Virus record (IMG/VR): IMGVR_UViG_3300030060_007902
Span: 1-32,704 of that record
Reading direction: 5' to 3' (one strand)
Length of the DNA: 32,704 nt
Source: a virus
Under the pieces are notes generated by a model, which saw only the letters and a list, made by a program, of their open reading frames with translations, did no database searches and was not told the origin of the DNA. Each line of letters starts with the position of its first letter. Position 1 is the stretch's first letter. The position numbers and the translations under genes were made by a program. This document shows, one piece after another, positions 16,575 through 32,704 of the stretch.

Positions 16575-16778
16575 ATGAAACGTAATTCGGTTCTTAAAAA
16601 ATTTGACAAAGAGATAGAAAATTTATTTGATGCATTAGATGGTATAAAAGATTTACTTGAAAGTACAGATGATTATGAATTAGCTGAACTTGGTAATAAT
16701 TTTGTTGATCAAATTGCCGATAATTTAGAAGAAGGCGACATAACAGCACAAAATATAAGAGATCAAATATCTAGTTGA
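16575..16778 (+). CDS. Small helical acidic protein, unknown function
   Basis: A 67-residue protein rich in Asp, Glu, Leu and Ile (KKFDKEIENLFDALDGIKDL, then AELGNNFVDQIADNLEEGDI), probably all helical. It has no transmembrane segment or known motif. It is driven by its own late octamer, and its 3' end contains the TTGATT box of the next promoter. I do not recognise it. Confidence 0.7.
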   Translation: MKRNSVLKKFDKEIENLFDALDGIKDLLESTDDYELAELGNNFVDQIADNLEEGDITAQNIRDQISS

Positions 16779-16801
16779 TTATAATTTTATATGCGTATAA
16801 T
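16775..16801 (+). promoter_or_regulatory. Sigma70-like promoter TTGATT-N15-TATAAT (metabolic operon)
   Basis: TTGATT at 16775-16780 and TATAAT at 16796-16801. The ATG of the GMP reductase gene is 6 bases after TATAAT, so the expected transcription start coincides with the start codon. Confidence 0.55.
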
Positions 16802-16807
16802 ATTTAT

Positions 16808-17848
16808 ATGCGCATAGAGACTGAACTAAAGTATGATTTTGATGATGTACTTATTCGTCCTAAACGATCTACTCTTTCATCTAGAAAAGAGGTAGACTTA
16901 ACTAGAACGTTTAGATTCAAATACGGTGGTTCCTACTGCGGTATACCGGTAATGGCTGCTAACATGGATGGTGTTGGTACGTTAGAGGTAGGAAGAACCT
17001 TAAGTGATCTAGATCTCTTTACTTGTTACAAGAAGGACATCGATGAAAAGGAGCTTATTGAAGAGCTAAAAGATAATCAAGGTAAACATGTAGCTGTAAC
17101 AGTAGGTAGAAACGAGTTTGATTATGAGAGGTTAGCTCGTATTAATAAGAAAGCTTCAGTACGTAATATTTGTATTGATGTAGCGAATGGTTATACACAA
17201 GCTCTTGTTGATTTTGTAAAGGTAGTAAGAAGAACGTTCCCTAAATGTAATATTATAGCAGGTAATGTTGTAACAGGTGAAATGGTTGAAGAGCTTCTTC
17301 TAGCTGGAGCAGATATTATTAAAGTCGGTATTGGATCTGGAAGTGTTTGTACTACTCGACTTAAGACAGGAGTTGGTTATCCTCAGTTTAGTTGCATTGC
17401 TGAATGCGCTGATGCTGCTCATGGACTTGATGGTCATATTATTGCTGATGGGGGATGTACGACACCTGGTGATGTAGCTAAAGCATTTGGTGCTGGTGCC
17501 GATTTTGTAATGCTTGGATCAATGTTAGCTGGTTCAACAGAAGGTGGTGGGGAAAAAATTATTATCGATGATAAAGAGTATGTTGAGTTCTATGGAATGA
17601 GCAGCAAGAAGGCCAACGAGAAACATAACGGGGGTTTAAAAGACTACAGAACTTCAGAAGGACGTAGAGTGGTTCTACCATATAAAGGACCTATGCGTTA
17701 TATTGTTCAAGATATTTTAGGAGGTATTAGAAGTACATGCACATATGTAGGAGCTGCTAAGCTTAAGCATCTGAGTAAATGCGCTACGTTTGTAAGATGT
17801 ACCAAGACGCATAGTAAAATATATGAACCAAACACTTTAGAAATATGA
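16808..17848 (+). CDS. guaC: GMP reductase
   Basis: A 346-residue enzyme of the IMPDH/GMPR family (E. coli GuaC has 347 residues). It reduces GMP to IMP and ammonia with NADPH. Visible features are the TIM-barrel opening DFDDVLIRPKRSTL, PVMAANMD, the catalytic loop KVGIGSGSVCTTRLKTGVGYP with Cys181, a phosphate-binding IADGGC, AFGAGADFVMLGSMLAG and a FYGMSS loop. There is no CBS insert, as expected for GMP reductase rather than IMP dehydrogenase. The usual GPGS is GSGS here. I use the ATG at 16808; the frame continues upstream to 16775 but that adds a poor extension and the promoter supports 16808. It is the first gene of a coupled operon and its stop overlaps the next start (ATGA). Confidence 0.9.
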   Translation: MRIETELKYDFDDVLIRPKRSTLSSRKEVDLTRTFRFKYGGSYCGIPVMAANMDGVGTLEVGRTLSDLDLFTCYKKDIDEKELIEELKDNQGKHVAVTVGRNEFDYERLARINKKASVRNICIDVANGYTQALVDFVKVVRRTFPKCNIIAGNVVTGEMVEELLLAGADIIKVGIGSGSVCTTRLKTGVGYPQFSCIAECADAAHGLDGHIIADGGCTTPGDVAKAFGAGADFVMLGSMLAGSTEGGGEKIIIDDKEYVEFYGMSSKKANEKHNGGLKDYRTSEGRRVVLPYKGPMRYIVQDILGGIRSTCTYVGAAKLKHLSKCATFVRCTKTHSKIYEPNTLEI

Positions 17849-18753
17849 TTAAAGTATTGATATTAGGAAGAGGGTATGTAGGATCTTACATACATAAAAA
17901 ACTAGAAGAGGTTGGAAATGATTATCTTTCACAAACCGGGGTTCTTGTTGAGTCAGTAGCTCGTCGAGAATTTGACTACGTTGATATCAATCTTCTAGAT
18001 GAAAAAATATACTGCAGCGATTTTAAAATAAGAGCATTTTTTGCGCGGTACGATTACGTAATTAATTGTTCCGGATTTACCGGTAGACCTAATGTTGATC
18101 AGGGTGAAAGAGAACCTGGTCTGTGTTATGAACTTAATACTTTTGCTCCATTACGTGTGAGTAATATATGCCAAATAAGAAATATTAACTACATACATAT
18201 TTCTTCTGGATGTATATATACAGGATATGGAAAGGCATGGGAAGAAGATGATGAGCCTAATTTTGGTTTACTAAATGAAGAATCATCTACATATTCTAAA
18301 AGTAAGCATGCTTATGAACTTGCTAGTGATTACGGTCTAACGTTAAGAGTGAGGATGCCCTTTTGTGATACACTTCATGAACGCTCTTATCTTACTAAAA
18401 TTTTAAATTATGATAATTTAATTAATCTAGTTAATTCTAAAACGTACATTCCGCAGTTAGTAGATTTTATCGCGCATCTTATAACAAATGAGAAAGAAGC
18501 TAAAGAAAAAGATACAGTTAATTTTGTACAGCCGAACGCGCTTTCAACCGATAAGGTTACAGAAATTATGACAGATTATAATTTGCAAAACTCTAAATGG
18601 AATTGGGTACCATTCGAAGAGTTAGGTTGTATTGCAAATAGATCAAATTGTGTTCTATCTACCGATAAGCTTAAAGAGAAATATAGCTTTGAGCTATTAG
18701 ATGAAGAAGTGGCTATTCATCAAGCTTTGACTAATATAATAAAGGATGAATAA
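17845..18753 (+). CDS. NAD(P)-dependent epimerase/reductase of the extended SDR family (RmlD-like)
   Basis: A 302-residue SDR protein. The Rossmann motif is GRGYVGSYI (about residues 8-16), followed by YVINCSGFTGRP, an NTFAPLRV helix, the active-site Ser region IHISSGCIYTG and the catalytic pair Y150-x-x-x-K154 in STYSKSKHAYE. The layout resembles dTDP-4-dehydrorhamnose reductase and related sugar reductases. With RmlB four genes downstream, it may make a modified nucleotide sugar; substrate and product are unknown. Start and stop overlap neighbours (ATGA before, 8-base overlap after), so it is translationally coupled. Confidence 0.8.
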   Translation: MIKVLILGRGYVGSYIHKKLEEVGNDYLSQTGVLVESVARREFDYVDINLLDEKIYCSDFKIRAFFARYDYVINCSGFTGRPNVDQGEREPGLCYELNTFAPLRVSNICQIRNINYIHISSGCIYTGYGKAWEEDDEPNFGLLNEESSTYSKSKHAYELASDYGLTLRVRMPFCDTLHERSYLTKILNYDNLINLVNSKTYIPQLVDFIAHLITNEKEAKEKDTVNFVQPNALSTDKVTEIMTDYNLQNSKWNWVPFEELGCIANRSNCVLSTDKLKEKYSFELLDEEVAIHQALTNIIKDE

Positions 18754-19186
18754 AGAAGTAGTAGGTTTTACCGCGGGTAGTTTTGATCTCCTTCACCCGG
18801 GTTATATTTACACATTTGAAGAAGCAAAAAGACATTGCAATAGGTTTCTTATTTTTCTTCAAAAAGACCCATCGTCAACTAGATATACAAAATATAAGCC
18901 AGTTATACCTTATTATGAAAGGTATAAGACATTAATGGCTATTCAGTATGTTGATGATGTGTATATGTATCAAACAGAAGAAGAACTATATGACTTAATT
19001 AAGTTCTTTAAACCCGATGTTAGAATTCTTGGAGAGGATTATATCGGTAAACCATTTACGGGAGATGATCTGCCCCCGAAAATAATTTATACGACCCGTT
19101 CACATGAATGGTCAACAACTAGAATTAAAGATTTAATTACTATACAAACAGTTAAACAAAATCCTGATATTTTAAAAAAGAAATGA
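18746..19186 (+). CDS. Cytidylyltransferase-like nucleotidyltransferase (HxGH motif altered to HPGY)
   Basis: A 146-residue member of the TagD/HldE-C/RibF-type nucleotidyltransferase family, in a subgroup common in marine phages. It has GFTAGSFDLLHPGYI near the N-terminus, FLIFLQKDPSSTR, ERYKTLMAIQYVDDV, RILGEDYIGKPFTG and the C-terminal STTRIKDL motif (residues 123-128). Relatives attach CMP or AMP to a phosphorylated sugar or alcohol. The signature HxGH reads H17-P-G-Y20, so the second, normally catalytic His is Tyr. Activity may be altered, lost, or supported differently. It lies between an SDR sugar enzyme and MtnA and overlaps both (8 bases before, ATGA after). A link to nucleotide-sugar synthesis is inferred from RmlB in the same operon. 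Confidence 0.8.
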   Translation: MNKEVVGFTAGSFDLLHPGYIYTFEEAKRHCNRFLIFLQKDPSSTRYTKYKPVIPYYERYKTLMAIQYVDDVYMYQTEEELYDLIKFFKPDVRILGEDYIGKPFTGDDLPPKIIYTTRSHEWSTTRIKDLITIQTVKQNPDILKKK

Positions 19187-20187
19187 GAGAGTATCCAATC
19201 GAATTAACTCCAACAGTGTCGTGGGATAAAGGTAAGATAATTATTCTAGATCAAACTAAGCTACCTAAAGAAGAAAAATATATAGAGACAAGTAATCTAG
19301 ATGAAGTTATTGCAGCTATACAAAGATTATCTATTAGAGGAGCCCCAGCATTGGGTTGTGTAGGTGCATATGCTTGTGCGTTAGTTGCTTTTAAATGTAA
19401 CTCTCTAATAAAAGAATCATTTAATCGACTGTTACTTAGTGATTGGGAAAAAATTGCTGGTGCTAGACCAACAGCTGTTAATCTTAAGTGGGCTGTTGAT
19501 ATAATGAAAGAAAAATTAACAATGTATTTGGAAGATACTAAGTTTGACTTAATAGAGGCAAGACGCTATCTTTTAAAATGCGCTGAAGAAATTCATAAAG
19601 ACGATATTAAAAGATGTGATGCGTTATGTTTATTTGGTTCTAATTTATTTCCTGAAAAGGCAAAGGTAATGACTATTTGCAACACTGGGGGGTTATGCTC
19701 TGGGGGAATTGGAACAGCTTTAGGATGTATACAATATGCGCATGCTTTCGAAAAAGATATAGAAGTTTATGTACCAGAGACGAGACCTCTACTACAAGGT
19801 GCGCGATTGAATACATGGGAATTGGAACGTTCTAAAGTACCGTATAAATTAATAACTGATAGTATGGCAGGGTCAGTAATGAGGGATAAAAAAATTGATC
19901 TTATTATTGTTGGAGCTGATAGAATTACAAAAAATGGAGATGTAGCAAATAAAATAGGTACATATAATTTAGCTGTTTTAGCAAAGCATCATAAAATACC
20001 ATTTTATGTAGCTGCACCCGACTCTACTGTTGATCGTAACATTAAAAGCGGAGCAGAGATACCAATTGAACAACGAGCTGCAGATGAAATATCATCCTAT
20101 ACCTCGAAGGTATATAACCCAGCATTTGACGTAACACCGTTTGAGCTTATTGATACAATAATTACAGAGAAAGGATATTGGAAATGA
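19183..20187 (+). CDS. mtnA: 5-methylthioribose-1-phosphate isomerase
   Basis: A 334-residue protein of the eIF2B-alpha-like isomerase family, with the full MtnA motif set: SIRGAPALG (residues 50-58), GARPTAVNL (93-101), the catalytic Cys166 in ICNTGGLCSGGIGTALG, ETRPLLQGARLNTWEL (199-214), and GADRITKNGDVANKIGTY with catalytic Asp246. The Cys-Asp spacing of 80 equals that of B. subtilis MtnA (C160, D240). It converts 5-methylthioribose-1-phosphate to methylthioribulose-1-phosphate in methionine salvage. The next gene encodes MTA phosphorylase, which makes its substrate, supporting MtnA over a ribose-phosphate isomerase paralogue. Both ends overlap neighbours by ATGA. Confidence 0.92.
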   Translation: MREYPIELTPTVSWDKGKIIILDQTKLPKEEKYIETSNLDEVIAAIQRLSIRGAPALGCVGAYACALVAFKCNSLIKESFNRLLLSDWEKIAGARPTAVNLKWAVDIMKEKLTMYLEDTKFDLIEARRYLLKCAEEIHKDDIKRCDALCLFGSNLFPEKAKVMTICNTGGLCSGGIGTALGCIQYAHAFEKDIEVYVPETRPLLQGARLNTWELERSKVPYKLITDSMAGSVMRDKKIDLIIVGADRITKNGDVANKIGTYNLAVLAKHHKIPFYVAAPDSTVDRNIKSGAEIPIEQRAADEISSYTSKVYNPAFDVTPFELIDTIITEKGYWK

Positions 20188-20912
20188 AAATTGGATTAAT
20201 TGGAGGATCAGGATTAAGTGATGATAACTTTTTCGAGAAAGCAATAACGGTAGGTACAAAGTATGGGAGCCCATCTTCTAGGGTATTTAAAGGTATAATT
20301 AATAACCATGAAATATTTTATATTAAAAGACATGGCGGTGGTCACATCTATACCCCTACAAACGTACCTTATAGAGCAAACATAAAAGCGCTCGCAGAAT
20401 TAGGATGTGAAAAAATAATTGCAGTTACAGCAGTTGGTTCTTTACAACAAGAAATTGAACCTGGTCATTTAGTTTTCCCAGATCAATTTATAGACATGAC
20501 TAAAAAGAGAAAGACCTCTTTTTTTGAAGATGATAAAAAATTTACACACGTTAATATGGCAGAGCCATTTGACTCTAGTATAAGAAGTAAGTTAATTAAA
20601 TGCGCTAAGAAATTAAACATACCACACCATACTGATAAGACTGTTATAACTATAGAGGGGTTAAGGTTTAGTACGAAAGCTGAAAGTCGGCTATGGCGTT
20701 CCTGGGGTGCTGATATAATTAACATGTCGACAGTACCAGAAGTATGCTTAGCAAAGGAATTAGATATACCTTATCAATCGATTGCGTTGAGTACAGATTA
20801 CGATAGTTGGAATGATGAGCATGAATCTGTTACTTTCGAAATGGTTGTTGAGCAGGTTTATAAGAATGTTAAAAATGTTAAAGAGCTTTTAAATTTATAT
20901 TTTAATGAGTAA
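20184..20912 (+). CDS. mtnP: 5'-methylthioadenosine phosphorylase
   Basis: A 242-residue protein of the MTAP branch of purine nucleoside phosphorylases. Motifs are GLIGGSGL (phosphate site), KRHGGGH, NVPYRANIKALAELG, TAVGSLQQEIEPG, DQFIDMTKKR, a substrate segment IEGLRFSTKAES (normally EGPRFS), WGADIINMSTVPEVCLA and STDYDSW, where D205 and D207 match the adenine-recognising Asp pair of human MTAP. It cleaves methylthioadenosine with phosphate to adenine and 5-methylthioribose-1-phosphate, which MtnA (upstream) isomerises. The start is the ATG at 20184, overlapping the mtnA stop; a TTG two codons earlier is possible but unnecessary. Confidence 0.92.
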   Translation: MKIGLIGGSGLSDDNFFEKAITVGTKYGSPSSRVFKGIINNHEIFYIKRHGGGHIYTPTNVPYRANIKALAELGCEKIIAVTAVGSLQQEIEPGHLVFPDQFIDMTKKRKTSFFEDDKKFTHVNMAEPFDSSIRSKLIKCAKKLNIPHHTDKTVITIEGLRFSTKAESRLWRSWGADIINMSTVPEVCLAKELDIPYQSIALSTDYDSWNDEHESVTFEMVVEQVYKNVKNVKELLNLYFNE

Positions 20913-21897
20913 TTATGTTGTAACAGGTGGGTGTGGTTTTATAGGGTCTTATGTAATTAAGGAGCTTTTAAATAGTAAAGAGGAAGATATCTATATCTAT
21001 AATTTAGATAAGATGGGTATAGGTTCATCCAAGGAAAATATTGTAGGTGATGAAAGAGTTGAAAATCATTTCATGGATATTACTAATGATGATTTCTGGA
21101 GGCTTCATATGGCTAACCCTTTAGAGTTTATATCAAAAAAAATTGATTACGTTATTCATCTAGCTGCTGAATCACATGTCGATAGATCTATAGATAATCC
21201 TTTAGAGTTTGTTGACTCTAATTTAAAAGGTACCGCTAACGTACTTGAACTAGTTAGAAAGCATAAAGCTAGAATGGTTCATGTTTCGACAGATGAAGTT
21301 TATGGTCATTTAGGAAAAGATGATCCTCCATTTACGGAAGAGAGTCCTCTAGCTCCAAGGTCACCATACTCAGCTACTAAAGCAGGTTCAGATTTACTTG
21401 TACAGTCATATATCGAAACGTTTGGTATTGATGCTTCTATTACAAGGTGTTGTAATAATTATGGACCGCGACAAGGTGATGAAAAATTAATACCTACTGT
21501 TATCAGATCAATCGTAAAAGGGGATAAAATACCTGTTTATGGTACTGGAGAAAATATAAGGGAGTGGATTCATGCTGAAGATCACGCTAAAGCTATCTTA
21601 GAAGTATTAGTTGATGCAGTACCTGCACATATATACAATATTACAGGAAGCGCGATATATACAAACATAAAATTAATTAATTTAATTATTGATAATGTTG
21701 AAACTCTTTATCCTGAATATAAAAGAGAAGTAATAGGTGCTCGAGAAGAATACATTGAGTTTGTAAAAGATAGAGCAGGTCATGACTTTAAATACGAACT
21801 TTCTACTAAGCATAACTTAAAAGCTGTAAGTTCACAGCAACAATTTTTTATTAGTGATACAATTAGATATTATGTAGAAAAGTACAGCGCTGTGTAA
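20905..21897 (+). CDS. rmlB: dTDP-glucose 4,6-dehydratase-like enzyme
   Basis: A 330-residue extended SDR with the RmlB signature: VTGGCGFIGSYV (NAD-binding), HLAAESHVDRSI, the catalytic triad region STDEVYG (T129, D130, E131), SPYSATKAGSD with Y155 and K159, NNYGPRQ and REWIHAEDHAKAI. RmlB oxidises, dehydrates and reduces dTDP-glucose to dTDP-4-keto-6-deoxyglucose. A related sugar dehydratase using another nucleotide is possible. It is coupled to mtnP (8-base overlap) and directly precedes the long fibre gene. With the SDR and nucleotidyltransferase upstream it suggests that the phage alters a surface or virion glycan; this is inference. Confidence 0.88.
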   Translation: MSNYVVTGGCGFIGSYVIKELLNSKEEDIYIYNLDKMGIGSSKENIVGDERVENHFMDITNDDFWRLHMANPLEFISKKIDYVIHLAAESHVDRSIDNPLEFVDSNLKGTANVLELVRKHKARMVHVSTDEVYGHLGKDDPPFTEESPLAPRSPYSATKAGSDLLVQSYIETFGIDASITRCCNNYGPRQGDEKLIPTVIRSIVKGDKIPVYGTGENIREWIHAEDHAKAILEVLVDAVPAHIYNITGSAIYTNIKLINLIIDNVETLYPEYKREVIGAREEYIEFVKDRAGHDFKYELSTKHNLKAVSSQQQFFISDTIRYYVEKYSAV

Positions 21898-25724: not shown

Positions 25725-26198
25725 TTAAGATACAGAAAAGAATTTCAAAAACATTTCCTCTTCAGTCATCTCTTGCTCTACGAAATCATCATCAGTTTGC
25801 TCCGCTTCTCCGTAGTAACCATAAATATCATCTTCTTCAACACTGTAGTCAAATGAAGAAGATGTGGTAACAGTTGTATCAAATTTATCTCGCATTGCGG
25901 AAATAATTACATCCTTGATTTGATTTGCGGTAGCATCTGATTTTGCTCTTTTTAAAAAGTCCGTTACATCATCTGTAGTAAATTTACCTTTAAGATCTTT
26001 AAAGGGATCATCATACGTTCCCCATATATGTAAAACAAGATACTTCTGAGTAATCATTGCACAGTCTCTAATAACATAATAAGCAGACTTATTGTTAATC
26101 TCTACTCCAATATCTGGTTTCTTATGAGCTCTTTTCGCTGGTTCGAGAAGTTTAGCTTGTTTCTCCTTACTATATTCTAATATTTTTAGTTCTAACAC
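25725..26198 (-). CDS. Unknown acidic-tailed late protein
   Basis: A 157-residue protein with a mixed helical/strand N-terminal part (LELKILEYSKEKQAKLLEPA, then YYVIRDCAMITQKYLVLHIWG) and a strongly acidic C-terminus (YSVEEDDIYGYYGEAEQTDD). I recognise no family. The start is GTG at 26198, 5 bases after ACTAAATA; the ATG two bases upstream is out of frame and stops after two codons. The gene is convergent with the long fibre gene, with no intergenic base. Its late promoter suggests a structural or assembly role, but nothing in the sequence shows this. Confidence 0.7.
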   Translation of the reverse strand: MLELKILEYSKEKQAKLLEPAKRAHKKPDIGVEINNKSAYYVIRDCAMITQKYLVLHIWGTYDDPFKDLKGKFTTDDVTDFLKRAKSDATANQIKDVIISAMRDKFDTTVTTSSSFDYSVEEDDIYGYYGEAEQTDDDFVEQEMTEEEMFLKFFSVS

Positions 26199-26211: not shown

Positions 26212-26238
26212 GGAACTCGGAAGGAACTACTATATAAT
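26212..26238 (+). promoter_or_regulatory. Early-type promoter GGAACT-N4-TATAAT with an extra GGAACT
   Basis: GGAACT at 26223-26228, four bases, TATAAT at 26233-26238, then six bases and the ATG at 26245. A second GGAACT at 26212-26217 lies 11 bases upstream. The fixed geometry is shared with three other genes and predicts transcription starting at the A of the ATG. Confidence 0.7.
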
Positions 26239-26433: not shown

Positions 26434-26882
26434 TAAAATTCTATCCATCAAAACGGATAATTAAAGAAACTGAACTAGATTTTGACCTACTGGGTAGAAT
26501 ATGTACTAATATTTTCGAAAGAGGTTTTGATCAAAAAATTAATATTGAATGTAAGGTATGGAAGAGCAGAGTGAAAGAGCAATCTACTATGGATCGAACA
26601 TCACGAAGCTTGCGTTATTATACAATGGACTTAGATACTGAAGGTACAAGACGGTATGTATTTGGAAGCATACTTCATGAATTAAGACATGCTTTTCAAG
26701 AATATGTGTTTAACTTTACTGCTGTAGCTAGATTCGCATCGTATAATGCATACTATAATTCTAAAGAGGAAAAAGATGCTAGAAAGCAAGAGAAGTTGAC
26801 TACTGAGGTTATAAAAATTTATGATTCATTCAAGAAGGCTGAAGAAAAATTTGACAGATTTAATCTAAAGGAACTAGGTTAA
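26430..26882 (+). CDS. Putative zinc metallopeptidase-like protein (HEXXH)
   Basis: A 150-residue protein with H83-E84-L-R-H87 in FGSILHELRHAFQEY, a zinc-binding HEXXH on a helix, followed by YNAYYNSKEEKDARKQEKL, which resembles the region giving the third ligand in small phage/ImmA-like metallopeptidases. The N-terminal half has short strands (KINIECKVW, RYYTMDLD). Such proteins may cut a host protein or only keep the fold. It is coupled to the 62-residue gene before it. The end of the gene contains a GGAACT-AGGT-TAAAAT element that may drive the next gene. The third zinc ligand cannot be fixed by eye. Confidence 0.6.
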   Translation: MIKFYPSKRIIKETELDFDLLGRICTNIFERGFDQKINIECKVWKSRVKEQSTMDRTSRSLRYYTMDLDTEGTRRYVFGSILHELRHAFQEYVFNFTAVARFASYNAYYNSKEEKDARKQEKLTTEVIKIYDSFKKAEEKFDRFNLKELG

Positions 26883-26885
26883 AAT
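26870..26885 (+). promoter_or_regulatory. Variant early-type promoter GGAACT-N4-TAAAAT
   Basis: GGAACT at 26870-26875, AGGT, TAAAAT at 26880-26885, inside the last codons of the HEXXH gene. The spacing matches the other early boxes, but the next ATG (26915) is 29 bases further, so this transcript would have an A-rich leader. Confidence 0.45.
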
Positions 26886-28150: not shown

Positions 28151-28166
28151 GGAACTATCATATAAT
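28151..28166 (+). promoter_or_regulatory. Early-type promoter GGAACT-N4-TATAAT
   Basis: GGAACT 28151-28156, ATCA, TATAAT 28161-28166, six bases, ATG 28173. It begins right after the stop of the previous gene. Confidence 0.7.
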
Positions 28167-29395: not shown

Positions 29396-29411
29396 GGAAC
29401 TCTAATATAAT
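29396..29411 (+). promoter_or_regulatory. Early-type promoter GGAACT-N4-TATAAT
   Basis: GGAACT 29396-29401, CTAA, TATAAT 29406-29411, six bases, ATG 29418. It heads a unit containing two tRNA genes. Confidence 0.7.
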
Positions 29412-29417
29412 AAAAGT

Positions 29418-29726
29418 ATGAAAAAAGAATATTTCGAACTTAGGATTTTTATTTGCTTTATCTTAACTATTTTTTATGTACAGTATACTGTATTAGTTAA
29501 TAATAACAACGAACCATCAACTGTAGAAGCACTTAAAGAAAAGGCTTTAGATGGATTTGAGGTTCGTATTATTAACGACCACGCAAACGAACGACTAGAG
29601 TTAACAGAAACTCTCGATCAAGCGCTAGCCTACATTAAGGAATACTCTATGCATCATGATGACTTAGTAGCATTTAATTTGTCTACTGGTTCAATAGTTG
29701 CTAAAAGTAACCCAGCAATTGACTAG
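29418..29726 (+). CDS. Small membrane-anchored protein, unknown function
   Basis: A 102-residue protein with one N-terminal hydrophobic helix (about residues 9-27, IFICFILTIFYVQYTVLV) and a soluble, acidic remainder (VEALKEKALDGFEVRIINDH and onward). The anchor is consistent with a membrane location. It is leaderless by promoter geometry. The G of its TAG stop is also the first base of the following tRNA gene. Confidence 0.7.
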   Translation: MKKEYFELRIFICFILTIFYVQYTVLVNNNNEPSTVEALKEKALDGFEVRIINDHANERLELTETLDQALAYIKEYSMHHDDLVAFNLSTGSIVAKSNPAID

Positions 29727-29801
29727 CGCTTGTAGCTCAGTGGTAAGAGCACTCGACTCATAATCGATAGGTCCTGGGTTCAAATCCCAGCGGGCGCACC
29801 A
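29726..29801 (+). tRNA. tRNA with anticodon CAT (Ile2 or elongator Met)
   Basis: A complete 76-base cloverleaf with an encoded CCA. The acceptor pairs GCGCTTG with CGGGCGC, the D-arm is GCTCAGTGGTAAGAGC, the anticodon loop is CTCATAA (anticodon CAT), and the T-arm is CTGGG/CCCAG. G1-C72 pairs, so it is not an initiator. The CGACTCATAATCG core resembles E. coli tRNA-Ile2 (lysidine-modified, reading ATA), which would suit this ATA-rich genome; elongator Met remains possible. Confidence 0.9.
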
Positions 29802-29811
29802 AAAATTTAAA

Positions 29812-30111
29812 ATGGATACAGACGAAGCAATAGATACAGTAGTAGGTTTAGCTAAAGCATTCTTAGTTATGAATGATAACCTACAAGAAGGAATTAAAGT
29901 TCAACCTAACAGACTACCTAAAGTTGAAGAAGCAATAAAGGTGCTTGAAGGTCTAAAGCCATCAAATATAATTGATGAAGTGTTTGATAATGAAATGAAC
30001 GCTAGAAAGAAAAGATTACAGCTTTGTGGTAAACACGAAGATCCAAGATACTACGTACCTTTCCCTGATGAAATAGACGGCGGAACAGCTCAAATACCTC
30101 ATCCGGATTAG
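29812..30111 (+). CDS. Unknown protein between the two tRNA genes
   Basis: A 99-residue, mostly helical acidic protein (DTDEAIDTVVGLAKAFLVMN, then RLPKVEEAIKVLEGLKP) with a C-terminal part rich in Pro and Tyr (DPRYYVPFPDEIDGG). No family is recognised. It starts 10 bases after the first tRNA; its TAG stop gives its G as base 1 of the second tRNA. It is probably co-transcribed with both, so RNA processing would cut the message at each side. Confidence 0.65.
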   Translation: MDTDEAIDTVVGLAKAFLVMNDNLQEGIKVQPNRLPKVEEAIKVLEGLKPSNIIDEVFDNEMNARKKRLQLCGKHEDPRYYVPFPDEIDGGTAQIPHPD

Positions 30112-30186
30112 GGAGCGTAGTCCAACGGCAGAGACAACGGACTTAAAATCCGTACAGTGTGGGTTCGAATCCCACCGCTCCTACCA
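30111..30186 (+). tRNA. tRNA with anticodon TAA (Leu) and a short variable arm
   Basis: A 76-base cloverleaf with encoded CCA. The anticodon stem ACGGA/TCCGT encloses CTTAAAA (anticodon TAA, reading TTA). The T-arm is GTGGG/CCCAC with loop TTCGAAT. The variable region is only five bases (ACAGT), whereas bacterial Leu tRNAs have a long variable arm. The 1-72 pair is G-T and the discriminator is A73. Leu identity is inferred from the anticodon. Confidence 0.85.
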
Positions 30187-30193
30187 ATTTATT

Positions 30194-31396
30194 ATGAAAA
30201 AATATATATTACTAACTACAATTGTACTTGCACCATTAGTTGAAGCGCAGAGATACGATCCTCCGCCTCATTCTAAAATGTTAATCAAACCTAAAATGCA
30301 TATACAGGTAAAGGCACCAGCTCCTAGCCCGTTGGAGAGTCCTAGAGTGCAGGATAAATTACTAAGCTTGTTTAAGTCTTCTAATAAAAATAGCCGTTTA
30401 GTTGGCTATAAGGCAGTAAGAGATAAGTTTAAAAAAGGAGAACTCAAACCAGACGATAGGAGGCTGTATAGAGTTCTAATAGGAAGAGCATCTGACTATC
30501 ATTTAGGAGAGTTGAAGGATCATGTAGAAGATATCTCTAAACCATCTGCTCTTAAGACAGTTGATAGTCCTACTAAATTTAAACAGTTTAACCGATTGTA
30601 TGGCGCATGGTTTATAGCAGCGCTCAACGCAAAAGAGATGGTGCAGACGGATTGGAGAAAGGTTCAACAGTCAGGCTCATTTGAGGGTATGCAAAGAGAA
30701 GTAACTCAATGCATAGCTTTATTTGAGCAAGCAGCTTCTAGTTGGGAGAAGATAAAAGATAGCTATGATATTTCTGCTCTTTATGATACTTGCGAAGCTA
30801 TTAATGAATGTAGAGAAGAAATCTCATGGTGCGATGGGGAGAAAGAGTTCGAAAAGACACCTATCTATAGGATGGTTACAGCAGTTCCAGGAGGCGTTCA
30901 GTTAAAACAAACTTTAGATAGAATTGATAGTTTTGATAGACAATTTAAAAATTACGCTAACTCTGAGTCATTTAATGCTAAGCAAGTCTGGGCTTCAGAA
31001 CAACAACGCGAGATGGTTTCTATTTTGAACAAAAATCGAATGATGATGGGCTTAGAGTGTTTAGAGCTAGATAAACTATTATGTAAAATATCTACTGAAC
31101 ATTCTCAAGATATGGTAGAGAGAGAGTTCTTTAGTCATACAGGATCAGATGGTAAGGGATATGAACAACGTGCAAGAGATGTAGATTGGAATGGAGGAAC
31201 TTGGGCGGAAGTAATTTACACAGGTTCTATAGATCCCAAGGCTGTATATGATGCTTGGTGGAAGAGTGAAGATAATAGACCTAAGCTGTTTGAAAAAAGA
31301 CTTAATAGAATAGGAGTAGGTATCGTCAATAAAACATGGACTGTAGTTATAGGTTCTACATATGATTTTAGATCTGATTACTTTATCGTAGATTAA
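30194..31396 (+). CDS. Secreted CAP/SCP-domain protein
   Basis: A 400-residue protein with a signal peptide (about residues 1-18, cleavage after VEA). A long helical, charged middle (about 40-270) precedes a C-terminal CAP domain (about 275-395): NKNRMMMGLECLELDKLL, EHSQDMVEREFFSHTGSDGK (H303, H315), GTWAEVIYTG (E339), AVYDAWWKSEDNRPKL and RIGVGIVNKTWTVVIGS. CAP proteins are extracellular; in bacteria their role is mostly unknown, with lipid-binding or protease-like functions proposed. The combination with a helical N-terminal region resembles secreted proteins of Planctomycetes/Verrucomicrobia, pointing to host origin (inference). It starts 7 bases after the tRNA, with no Shine-Dalgarno. Confidence 0.82.
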   Translation: MKKYILLTTIVLAPLVEAQRYDPPPHSKMLIKPKMHIQVKAPAPSPLESPRVQDKLLSLFKSSNKNSRLVGYKAVRDKFKKGELKPDDRRLYRVLIGRASDYHLGELKDHVEDISKPSALKTVDSPTKFKQFNRLYGAWFIAALNAKEMVQTDWRKVQQSGSFEGMQREVTQCIALFEQAASSWEKIKDSYDISALYDTCEAINECREEISWCDGEKEFEKTPIYRMVTAVPGGVQLKQTLDRIDSFDRQFKNYANSESFNAKQVWASEQQREMVSILNKNRMMMGLECLELDKLLCKISTEHSQDMVEREFFSHTGSDGKGYEQRARDVDWNGGTWAEVIYTGSIDPKAVYDAWWKSEDNRPKLFEKRLNRIGVGIVNKTWTVVIGSTYDFRSDYFIVD

Positions 31397-31408
31397 AGTA
31401 TATAGTTG

Positions 31409-31416
31409 ACTAAATA
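31409..31416 (+). promoter_or_regulatory. Late-type promoter octamer ACTAAATA
   Basis: ACTAAATA, then TTTAC, then the ATG at 31422 (5-base spacing). Confidence 0.6.
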
Positions 31417-31421
31417 TTTAC

Positions 31422-32522
31422 ATGAAGCCTTACATTATAATAGGGCTCTTAATATTATTGTTAGCAATAGTATCCCCTTCAGGAGCTCAAACGATCTCTA
31501 ACTTAACCGGTTTTCAAGTAGAGAGAATAAAACCTAACTCTCTAAATTTAATAGGCTTAAATACTTCAGTAACTCCTAATGGTAGTACTGCTAAGACCAT
31601 ATATAAAATATTTGGAGAAAATGCTACTAACGCTTATGTTAAAAAAAGCAATAACCCTTCCGAAGCTGATATTATTTGGGTGATTCAAAATGATGGTACG
31701 TGGTTACAAATTTATTATGCTCTAGGAGGAGAAGTTTTTCCTCCAGTTACAGAGGGTTGGCGCGCTGTTGGTTATGGTGATACCGATATGGGAGGTACTT
31801 TAATAACTGGTGGATTTTTTTACGAATCAAAAAGAAATGAAGAGTGGGGATTAGTTATGGCAGGTTTTGTAAATACAAACAATACTAATATTATTACAAG
31901 GACAGAATGGACAATATTAAATAGAGGTACCCCTATACCAATGAGTTTTACTGGTTTAAACTTATCATCATCTCAAGGTTTAATAAAAGGTAATGAACGG
32001 GAAGCAGATATATTATGGGTTCAAGAAGATGGCGTCTGGTCAGGTTATTATTATGCACTGAGGCAGAATTTTCCTCCATTGACTGAAGGATGGAGGAAGA
32101 TTGGATCGGGAAATCAAGATTTTAGTTATCATACAGTTAACTCTTCTGGTATTTTATTACAAGCTCCTAAATGGGCTGTTAGTAATGGTATGTTATCAAG
32201 TAGGCGGTTGATTACTTTATGGCCTCCATCAGGATTTCAAAGAGCAAGAAAGGTAACCGACCCAAATGACCCTCCAAAAGCTCAAGTAGATTATAGTCTT
32301 AGTTATGGTATAGGACAGATACCTAGTAGACTATATTTTGCTGTATTATGGCCAGGTAAACAAGGTATAAATTATACAACAGAATATTATGATACATTCT
32401 CAGGATGGACTTTCTTATCAGAGAGAGAAGGAGATGGAGTTAATTTAAATTTTGATTACACAATAGTGGATTATTTATTATGGGGTGTGACGAGAGTTAC
32501 ATCTGAATGGGTTAACTGGTAA
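31422..32522 (+). CDS. Secreted protein with two TIGR02597-like repeats
   Basis: A 366-residue protein with a signal peptide (about residues 1-22, cleavage after SGA). Two related modules follow: SEADIIWVIQNDGTWLQIYY, EGWRAVGYGDTDMGG (about residues 80-150) and READILWVQEDGVWSGYYYA, EGWRKIGSGNQDFSY (about 192-255). The ADxIWV....W..YYY...WR..G....D pattern resembles the TIGR02597 family of secreted proteins known from Verrucomicrobia; function unknown. The C-terminus is rich in aromatic and strand residues. It has a late promoter, unlike the CAP gene just upstream, so it may be virion-associated or released late. The family link was made by eye. Confidence 0.65.
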   Translation: MKPYIIIGLLILLLAIVSPSGAQTISNLTGFQVERIKPNSLNLIGLNTSVTPNGSTAKTIYKIFGENATNAYVKKSNNPSEADIIWVIQNDGTWLQIYYALGGEVFPPVTEGWRAVGYGDTDMGGTLITGGFFYESKRNEEWGLVMAGFVNTNNTNIITRTEWTILNRGTPIPMSFTGLNLSSSQGLIKGNEREADILWVQEDGVWSGYYYALRQNFPPLTEGWRKIGSGNQDFSYHTVNSSGILLQAPKWAVSNGMLSSRRLITLWPPSGFQRARKVTDPNDPPKAQVDYSLSYGIGQIPSRLYFAVLWPGKQGINYTTEYYDTFSGWTFLSEREGDGVNLNFDYTIVDYLLWGVTRVTSEWVNW

Positions 32523-32524
32523 AA

Positions 32525-32542
32525 GGAACTTCAAAAGGAACT
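32525..32542 (+). repeat. Orphan pair of GGAACT boxes
   Basis: GGAACT at 32525-32530 and 32537-32542, each preceded by AAAA, spaced 12 bases apart. No TATAAT follows at the usual distance. They lie just after the stop of the secreted-protein gene and about 80-95 bases upstream of a full GGAACT promoter. Confidence 0.55.
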
Positions 32543-32618
32543 CTGAAAAAAACTGTAATCTTTAGTTGAACATAGGATCAAAAGACATTATATTAAGAGG
32601 TAGTTAATAAAACTAAAA

Positions 32619-32634
32619 GGAACTCTAATATAAT
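32619..32634 (+). promoter_or_regulatory. Early-type promoter GGAACT-N4-TATAAT (sigma factor gene)
   Basis: GGAACT 32619-32624, CTAA, TATAAT 32629-32634, six bases, ATG 32641. The 16-base core equals that before 29418 at every position. Confidence 0.7.
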
Positions 32635-32640
32635 AAGATA

Positions 32641-32704
32641 ATGCCAGTAACTAAAGAACGCGCAGATGATCCGATTCGCGCATATATGAAACAAATGGGT
32701 CAGA
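32641..32704 (+). CDS. Sigma70-family RNA polymerase sigma factor, N-terminus only (cut by window end)
   Basis: Twenty-one codons are visible. DDPIRAYMKQMG matches sigma70 region 1.2, where primary sigma factors such as E. coli RpoD read DPVRMYMREMG. Region 1.2 helps contact the discriminator DNA below the -10 element. This is RpoD-like, unlike the short T4 late sigma gp55, and lacks the long acidic region 1.1 of RpoD. The gene has an early-type GGAACT promoter with no leader. A phage primary-type sigma factor could redirect host RNA polymerase to one of the unusual promoter classes here. The family call rests on one short motif but the match is good; the rest of the gene is outside the window. 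Confidence 0.75.
   Translation, partial: MPVTKERADDPIRAYMKQMGQ

Follow-up and report, generated by a model that had tools for sequence, protein, structure and literature searches.

A phage-borne RpoD-type sigma factor gene and a GGAAC-N4-TATAAT promoter class in marine T4-like phages

What does an RpoD-type sigma factor do in a T4-like phage, and does it read the unusual GGAACT box that precedes its own gene? Both questions are raised by the last bases of the window analyzed here, which is the entire record of a viral contig (IMGVR_UViG_3300030060_007902; 32,704 bp) from a marine T4-like phage. The frame that begins at the ATG at 32641 reads MPVTKERADDPIRAYMKQMGQ up to the last full codon, and the gene is incomplete in the window because the record stops at 32704.

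The sigma gene at the contig edge

Relatives were located using a back-translated pattern for DDPIRAYMKQMG, which returned three viral contigs, and full-protein searches supplied the remainder. One contig, G011 (IMGVR_UViG_3300030108_005945), matches the last 2,950 bases of the window (29756–32704) at 99.25% identity and extends beyond its edge, and here the sigma ORF runs uninterrupted for 377 aa. Two further complete orthologues are 380 and 384 aa long, within a full-length range of 377–386 aa, and a chance ORF is excluded because independent contigs repeat the identical start and protein. A sequence-only reading of the window had proposed an RpoD-type sigma gene at this edge, to be abandoned if the frame closed soon after 32704 or if sigma region 2 was missing; in G011 the frame stays open, and regions 2, 3 and 4 are found in the full-length orthologues.

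The terminase of a further contig, G001, is 100% identical to that of the window across the 576 residues searched, and G001 and G011 come from one metagenome, judging by contig name. When gene order is compared with G003, at 197 kb the largest contig of the group that carries the sigma gene, G001, the window and G011 tile one kind of genome, with the sigma block missing from G001. Loss of the gene in G001 and G002 was considered and rejected, as both contigs end at the sigma block and the absence is a contig gap. Closure of G003 into a circle is likewise unsupported, its ends having 4 kb in common at only 83% identity.

The late sigma factor gp55 was detected in G001, G002, G003, G006 and G007 (E about 1e-25 to 1e-27). 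A search for gp55 in the same genome had been proposed as a check, and it turned up in the same phage type, in G001 and, on one contig with the RpoD-type sigma gene, in G003. It is not seen in the window or G011 because it sits in the part of the genome covered by G001. Separately, a 157-aa ORF in the window (25725–26198, minus strand) ends in EEEMFLKFFSVS, which may resemble the tails by which gp33 and other T4 late-transcription proteins bind the clamp.

The Pfam models Sigma70_r1_2, r2, r3 and r4 (PF00140, PF04542, PF04539, PF04545) exceed their curated cut-offs in the orthologues P0002 and P0003. Region 1.1 is missing, with the N-terminus lying ~9 residues ahead of region 1.2, and the orthologues carry an insert of ~80–90 aa between regions 1.2 and 2.1. 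RpoD is the top-ranked NCBIfam profile, yet the scores are under the equivalog cut-offs (NF004208, 446.7 bits vs 555; TIGR02393, 322.5 vs 354), and both by score and by its N-terminus the protein falls outside the RpoD equivalog (group 1 primary sigma). P0002 and P0003 match the phage sigma family phrog_351 (E 1.9e-90 and 9.7e-92), and the same PHROG search returned no match of either to the gp55 profile phrog_234. A moderate fold model built from seven sequences (pLDDT 64, pTM 0.43) aligns with the primary sigmas of solved holoenzymes, with large whole-length rmsd values owing to the uncertain placement of domains in the model. Model residues 24–211, insert included, align with domain 2 of Caulobacter sigma70 (Z 16.0, 3.3 Å, 188 residues), and from this alignment the modeled insert looks like a sigma70-type non-conserved region. 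The product is a phage-borne RpoD-type sigma factor, for which a promoter-directing role is predicted.

Since the nearest curated profiles are those of bacterial RpoD, the gene might instead be a recently captured host rpoD with no role in the phage. This appears very improbable, as seven contigs with identities as low as 55% keep the frame open and conserved, with the insert, the location and the promoters shared. A single scan of genome contigs returned only two clostridial RpoDs, too little to place the donor phylum of the sigma.

Beyond the window, G011 encodes DUF1501 and DUF1549/DUF1553 proteins (L141:4802-6220, L142:4264-6003), and DUF1501 homologues are also present in L001 and L136. 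These families are typical of Planctomycetes and Verrucomicrobia, and their presence suggests a host from these groups. Within the window are genes for an iron/manganese superoxide dismutase (PF02777, PF00081; 15920–16546, minus strand) and, in one gene run on the plus strand (16775–21897), an IMPDH/GMP reductase, nucleotide-sugar epimerase/reductases and a cytidylyltransferase. Neighboring IF-2B family (MtnA-like) and phosphorylase superfamily (MtnP-like) genes at 19183–20912 on the plus strand are a possible methionine-salvage pair.

The GGAAC promoters and the other promoter classes

The box upstream of the sigma gene is one element of a composite promoter with the consensus GGAAC[ACT]-N4-TATAAT, in which the gap is exactly 4 bp, the two elements begin at -22 and -12 from the ATG, and there is no -35 element. 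A logo of 73 GGAACT sites, numbered with the A of the ATG as +1, reads A-24 A-23, GGAACT from -22 to -17, N4, and TATAAT from -12 to -7; only its flanking positions are informative, as the sites were chosen for GGAACT and TATAAT, and -36 to -31 carries almost no information. The spacing was tested independently in G033, where 55 sites are spaced by 4 and a single site accounts for every other gap between 0 and 12. The reversed GGAAC/TATAAT pattern occurs zero times in every record searched. The sequence-only reading had placed the sigma gene under a GGAACT box, and this holds for the composite rather than for the hexamer, which on its own is not enriched in the window (14 vs 13 expected) and was rejected as a lone signal. 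Two other roles were also rejected: a -35 element, as the box lies only 4 bp from the -10 and there is no information at -36 to -31, and a Shine-Dalgarno sequence, as it lies ~16 nt from the ATG and keeps one fixed spacing to TATAAT. The pair of GGAACT hexamers at 32525–32542 (Table 1), which have no TATAAT 4 bp downstream, are probably not promoters of this class.

Table 1 Sigma gene and promoter features located in the window
Feature	Position	Strand	Basis
RpoD-type sigma gene, 5' part (21 codons + 1 base)	32641..32704	+	ORF reading; full-length orthologue L135:2887-4017
GGAACT-N4-TATAAT promoter of sigma gene	32619..32634	+	GGAACT at 32619-32624
Conventional promoter TTGAAC-N17-TATATT, upstream of sigma gene	32566..32594	+	common arrangement, eight loci
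Two GGAACT hexamers without TATAAT 4 bp downstream	32525..32542	+	pattern match
GGAACT-N4-TATAAT box of ORF 29418	29396..29411	+	pattern match
GGAACT-N4-TATAAT box of ORF 28173	28151..28166	+	pattern match
Degenerate box GGAACT-N4-TAAAAT, before ORF 26915 (DUF932 protein)	26870..26885	+	relatives keep spacing
GGAACT-N4-TATAAT box of ORF 26245	26223..26238	+	pattern match

The boxes lie mainly within one-strand blocks of small genes (e.g., 23 in G013 and, starting at the sigma gene, 16 in G011), with a few elsewhere, and the sigma gene adjoins, or falls inside, such a block. Per contig, 55 boxes were counted in G033 and 22 each in G036 and G032. As TATAAT begins at -12, the predicted transcription start coincides with the ATG; from box position and gene type, we infer that the mRNAs of this class would be leaderless and early. 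The small-gene region of the window also contains a tRNA-Met (cat; 29726–29801) and a tRNA-Leu (taa; 30111–30186), both on the plus strand, followed at 30194–31396 (plus strand) by the gene for a CAP-domain protein with an apparent signal peptide, whose position is kept in L002, L134 and L135.

Eight sigma loci were compared (the window, L001, L002, L134, L135, L136, L138 and L087). GGAACT lies at -22 or -23 of the sigma gene in seven of them, the window and six relatives, the exception being G003, and a conventional TTGAA-N17-TATATT promoter lies farther upstream in all eight, G003 included, so the gene is readable by an ordinary primary sigma. The sequence-only reading had overlooked this conserved conventional promoter. 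Compared with other ATGs, gene starts are enriched in three classes, namely TAAATA at -11, TTGA-N15-19-TATAAT and GGAAC-N4-TATAAT. In G003, TTGA-N-TATAAT lies in front of 19 of 246 genes, compared with 14 of 6,641 control ATGs, and promoters of this class stand ahead of gp55 (G003:130778, G001:75954) and, in G036, of DNA polymerase. They also occur in G033 and G036, where an RpoD-type sigma was not found, and presumably the host sigma can therefore read them. The TAAATA element is of late type (compare NATAAATA and TATAAATA; PMC2984593). Across the structural genes of the window (e.g., ORFs 8230, 3368, 5813 and 6436) and in relatives, a TAAATA-type motif lies at -11/-12 of the ATG, implying that late mRNAs, too, would be leaderless.

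The reader of the GGAAC box

The promoter-contact residues of the sigma factor in regions 2.4 and 4.2 are mostly those of E. coli RpoD. Each of the eight T4-like phage sigmas tested has identical residues at the positions of W433, W434, Q437, R451 and H455 and of R584, E585, R588 and Q589, and ordinary TTGA/TATAAT reading is therefore predicted. The T440 position varies (T, I or S), and group-specific changes fall near the GGAAC end of the promoter, at the positions of T440, R441, D445, A447, V454 and E458; given these changes, altered promoter reading around the GGAAC end is possible.

The sequence-only reading had suggested that the sigma factor may itself read GGAACT. In such a scheme, a changed region 2.4/3.0 or the insert would contact -22 to -17, giving a self-amplifying early class. 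The box stands directly upstream of the sigma gene in seven of eight loci, the gene borders on, or lies among, dense boxes in G011, G013 and G005, and the family-specific changes cluster at the 440–458 positions. Furthermore, a box one helical turn above the -10, with a rigid 4-bp gap and no -35 information, fits a reader fixed to sigma domain 2. Against this, the boxes in G033 (at the same gap) and in G036 occur where no RpoD-type sigma was detected; G003 has the sigma but no box at -22 of its sigma gene; the sigma of G032, a box-bearing contig, is without the insert and most of the group changes; and if GGAAC genes are the first to be read, the phage sigma would not yet be present. With mostly ordinary -10 and -35 residues as well, the suggestion is unsupported, and we judge direct reading by the sigma factor unlikely.

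G033 weighs most here. It is a distant relative (82 of 239 G003 genes are found there) of 221 kb, with gp55 and GGAAC[ACT] promoters, and this contig, the completeness of which is unproven, gave no match to phrog_351 or to sigma region 4. Six further contigs rich in boxes, in which no sigma was detected (G021, G026, G028, G029, G030 and G036), are fragments and carry little weight. G032 encodes a 300-aa RpoD-type sigma of a different kind from that of the window, without the insert (77.8–78.7 kb; L269:1330-2229); this second kind may be a separate acquisition. Because G033, without the sigma, and G032, with a different one, both carry boxes, the GGAAC class probably extends beyond the sigma type of the window, and the RpoD-type sigma is probably not required for reading the GGAAC promoters of its block.

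On balance, we lean towards a scheme in which the sigma factor reinforces conventional TATAAT transcription until gp55 takes over, while the GGAAC element is read by another factor. Host-driven transcription would come first, after which the phage sigma would bind the host core RNA polymerase and raise or secure transcription from the phage's ordinary primary-sigma promoters (TTGA-N~17-TATAAT), perhaps also assisting at the TATAAT of GGAAC-class promoters. gp55 would afterwards shift the polymerase to the late TAAATA promoters. The reader of GGAAC would be shared with phages without this sigma; a factor of host or phage origin that sits on sigma region 2 is one candidate.

The canonical reading residues on a diverged scaffold without region 1.1 would also suit a substitute, with the phage shutting off the host primary sigma (e.g., through a putative anti-sigma) and going on to read ordinary promoters, and AsiA-type anti-sigmas are known in some T4-related jumbo phages (PMC7824862); we think this improbable. 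More tentatively, we propose that this T4-like lineage has a GGAAC box exactly 4 bp above TATAAT with no -35, leaderless early mRNAs, and a specificity determinant held on sigma region 2, which could be the phage sigma itself or a cofactor in common use. If true, the -35 element would be replaced in a manner that, as far as we found, is undescribed for phage sigmas.

Comparison with known systems

The window's sigma factor shares regions 1.2, 2, 3 and 4 and most promoter-contact residues with bacterial RpoD/SigA (group 1 and 2 sigma70, e.g., E. coli RpoD), and differs in its missing region 1.1, its scores under the equivalog cut-offs and its changes at the 440–458 positions. Like T4 gp55, it is a phage sigma for the host polymerase, and the two are found in the same phages; gp55, however, is a separate protein of 147–157 aa whose gene lies at another place in the genome, and the Pfam sigma region models that detect the RpoD-type sigma give no match to T4 gp55. 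An RpoD-like sigma in a T4-related phage has precedents, as RpoD-like sigmas, possibly of cellular origin, have been reported in T4-related group 2 jumbo phages, along with gp33 and a minimal sigma type (PMC7824862). These are, like the window's, fairly complete RpoD-like sigmas in a T4-related phage, and the phage RpoD-type sigma is therefore of a known kind, although G003 falls slightly under jumbo size. The best-covered match in phage records, the sigma-70 of Vibrio phage 2.275.O (MG592671; 31% identical), no longer has the region 4.2 residues that read the -35, whereas the group described here retains them.

Novelty lies more in the promoter class than in the sigma, which belongs to a kind already known. 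A GGAACT/TATAAT phage promoter class was not described in the literature searched, preprints and subscription papers being outside its scope, and the type is apparently undescribed. An RpoD-type sigma, gp55 and three separable promoter classes occur in one T4-like phage type, and with two sigmas and three classes together, it becomes possible to test directly in uncultured T4 relatives how early, middle and late control follow one another. The GGAAC-N4-TATAAT pattern is so sharply defined that a gene class could be predicted from it in metagenomic phages, and its box at -22 to -17 poses the question of what recognizes it. In layout it can be compared with the middle promoters of T4, where a MotA box upstream of TATAAT replaces the -35 element. 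The MotA box lies near -30, whereas the GGAAC box occupies -22 to -17 at a fixed 4-bp gap.
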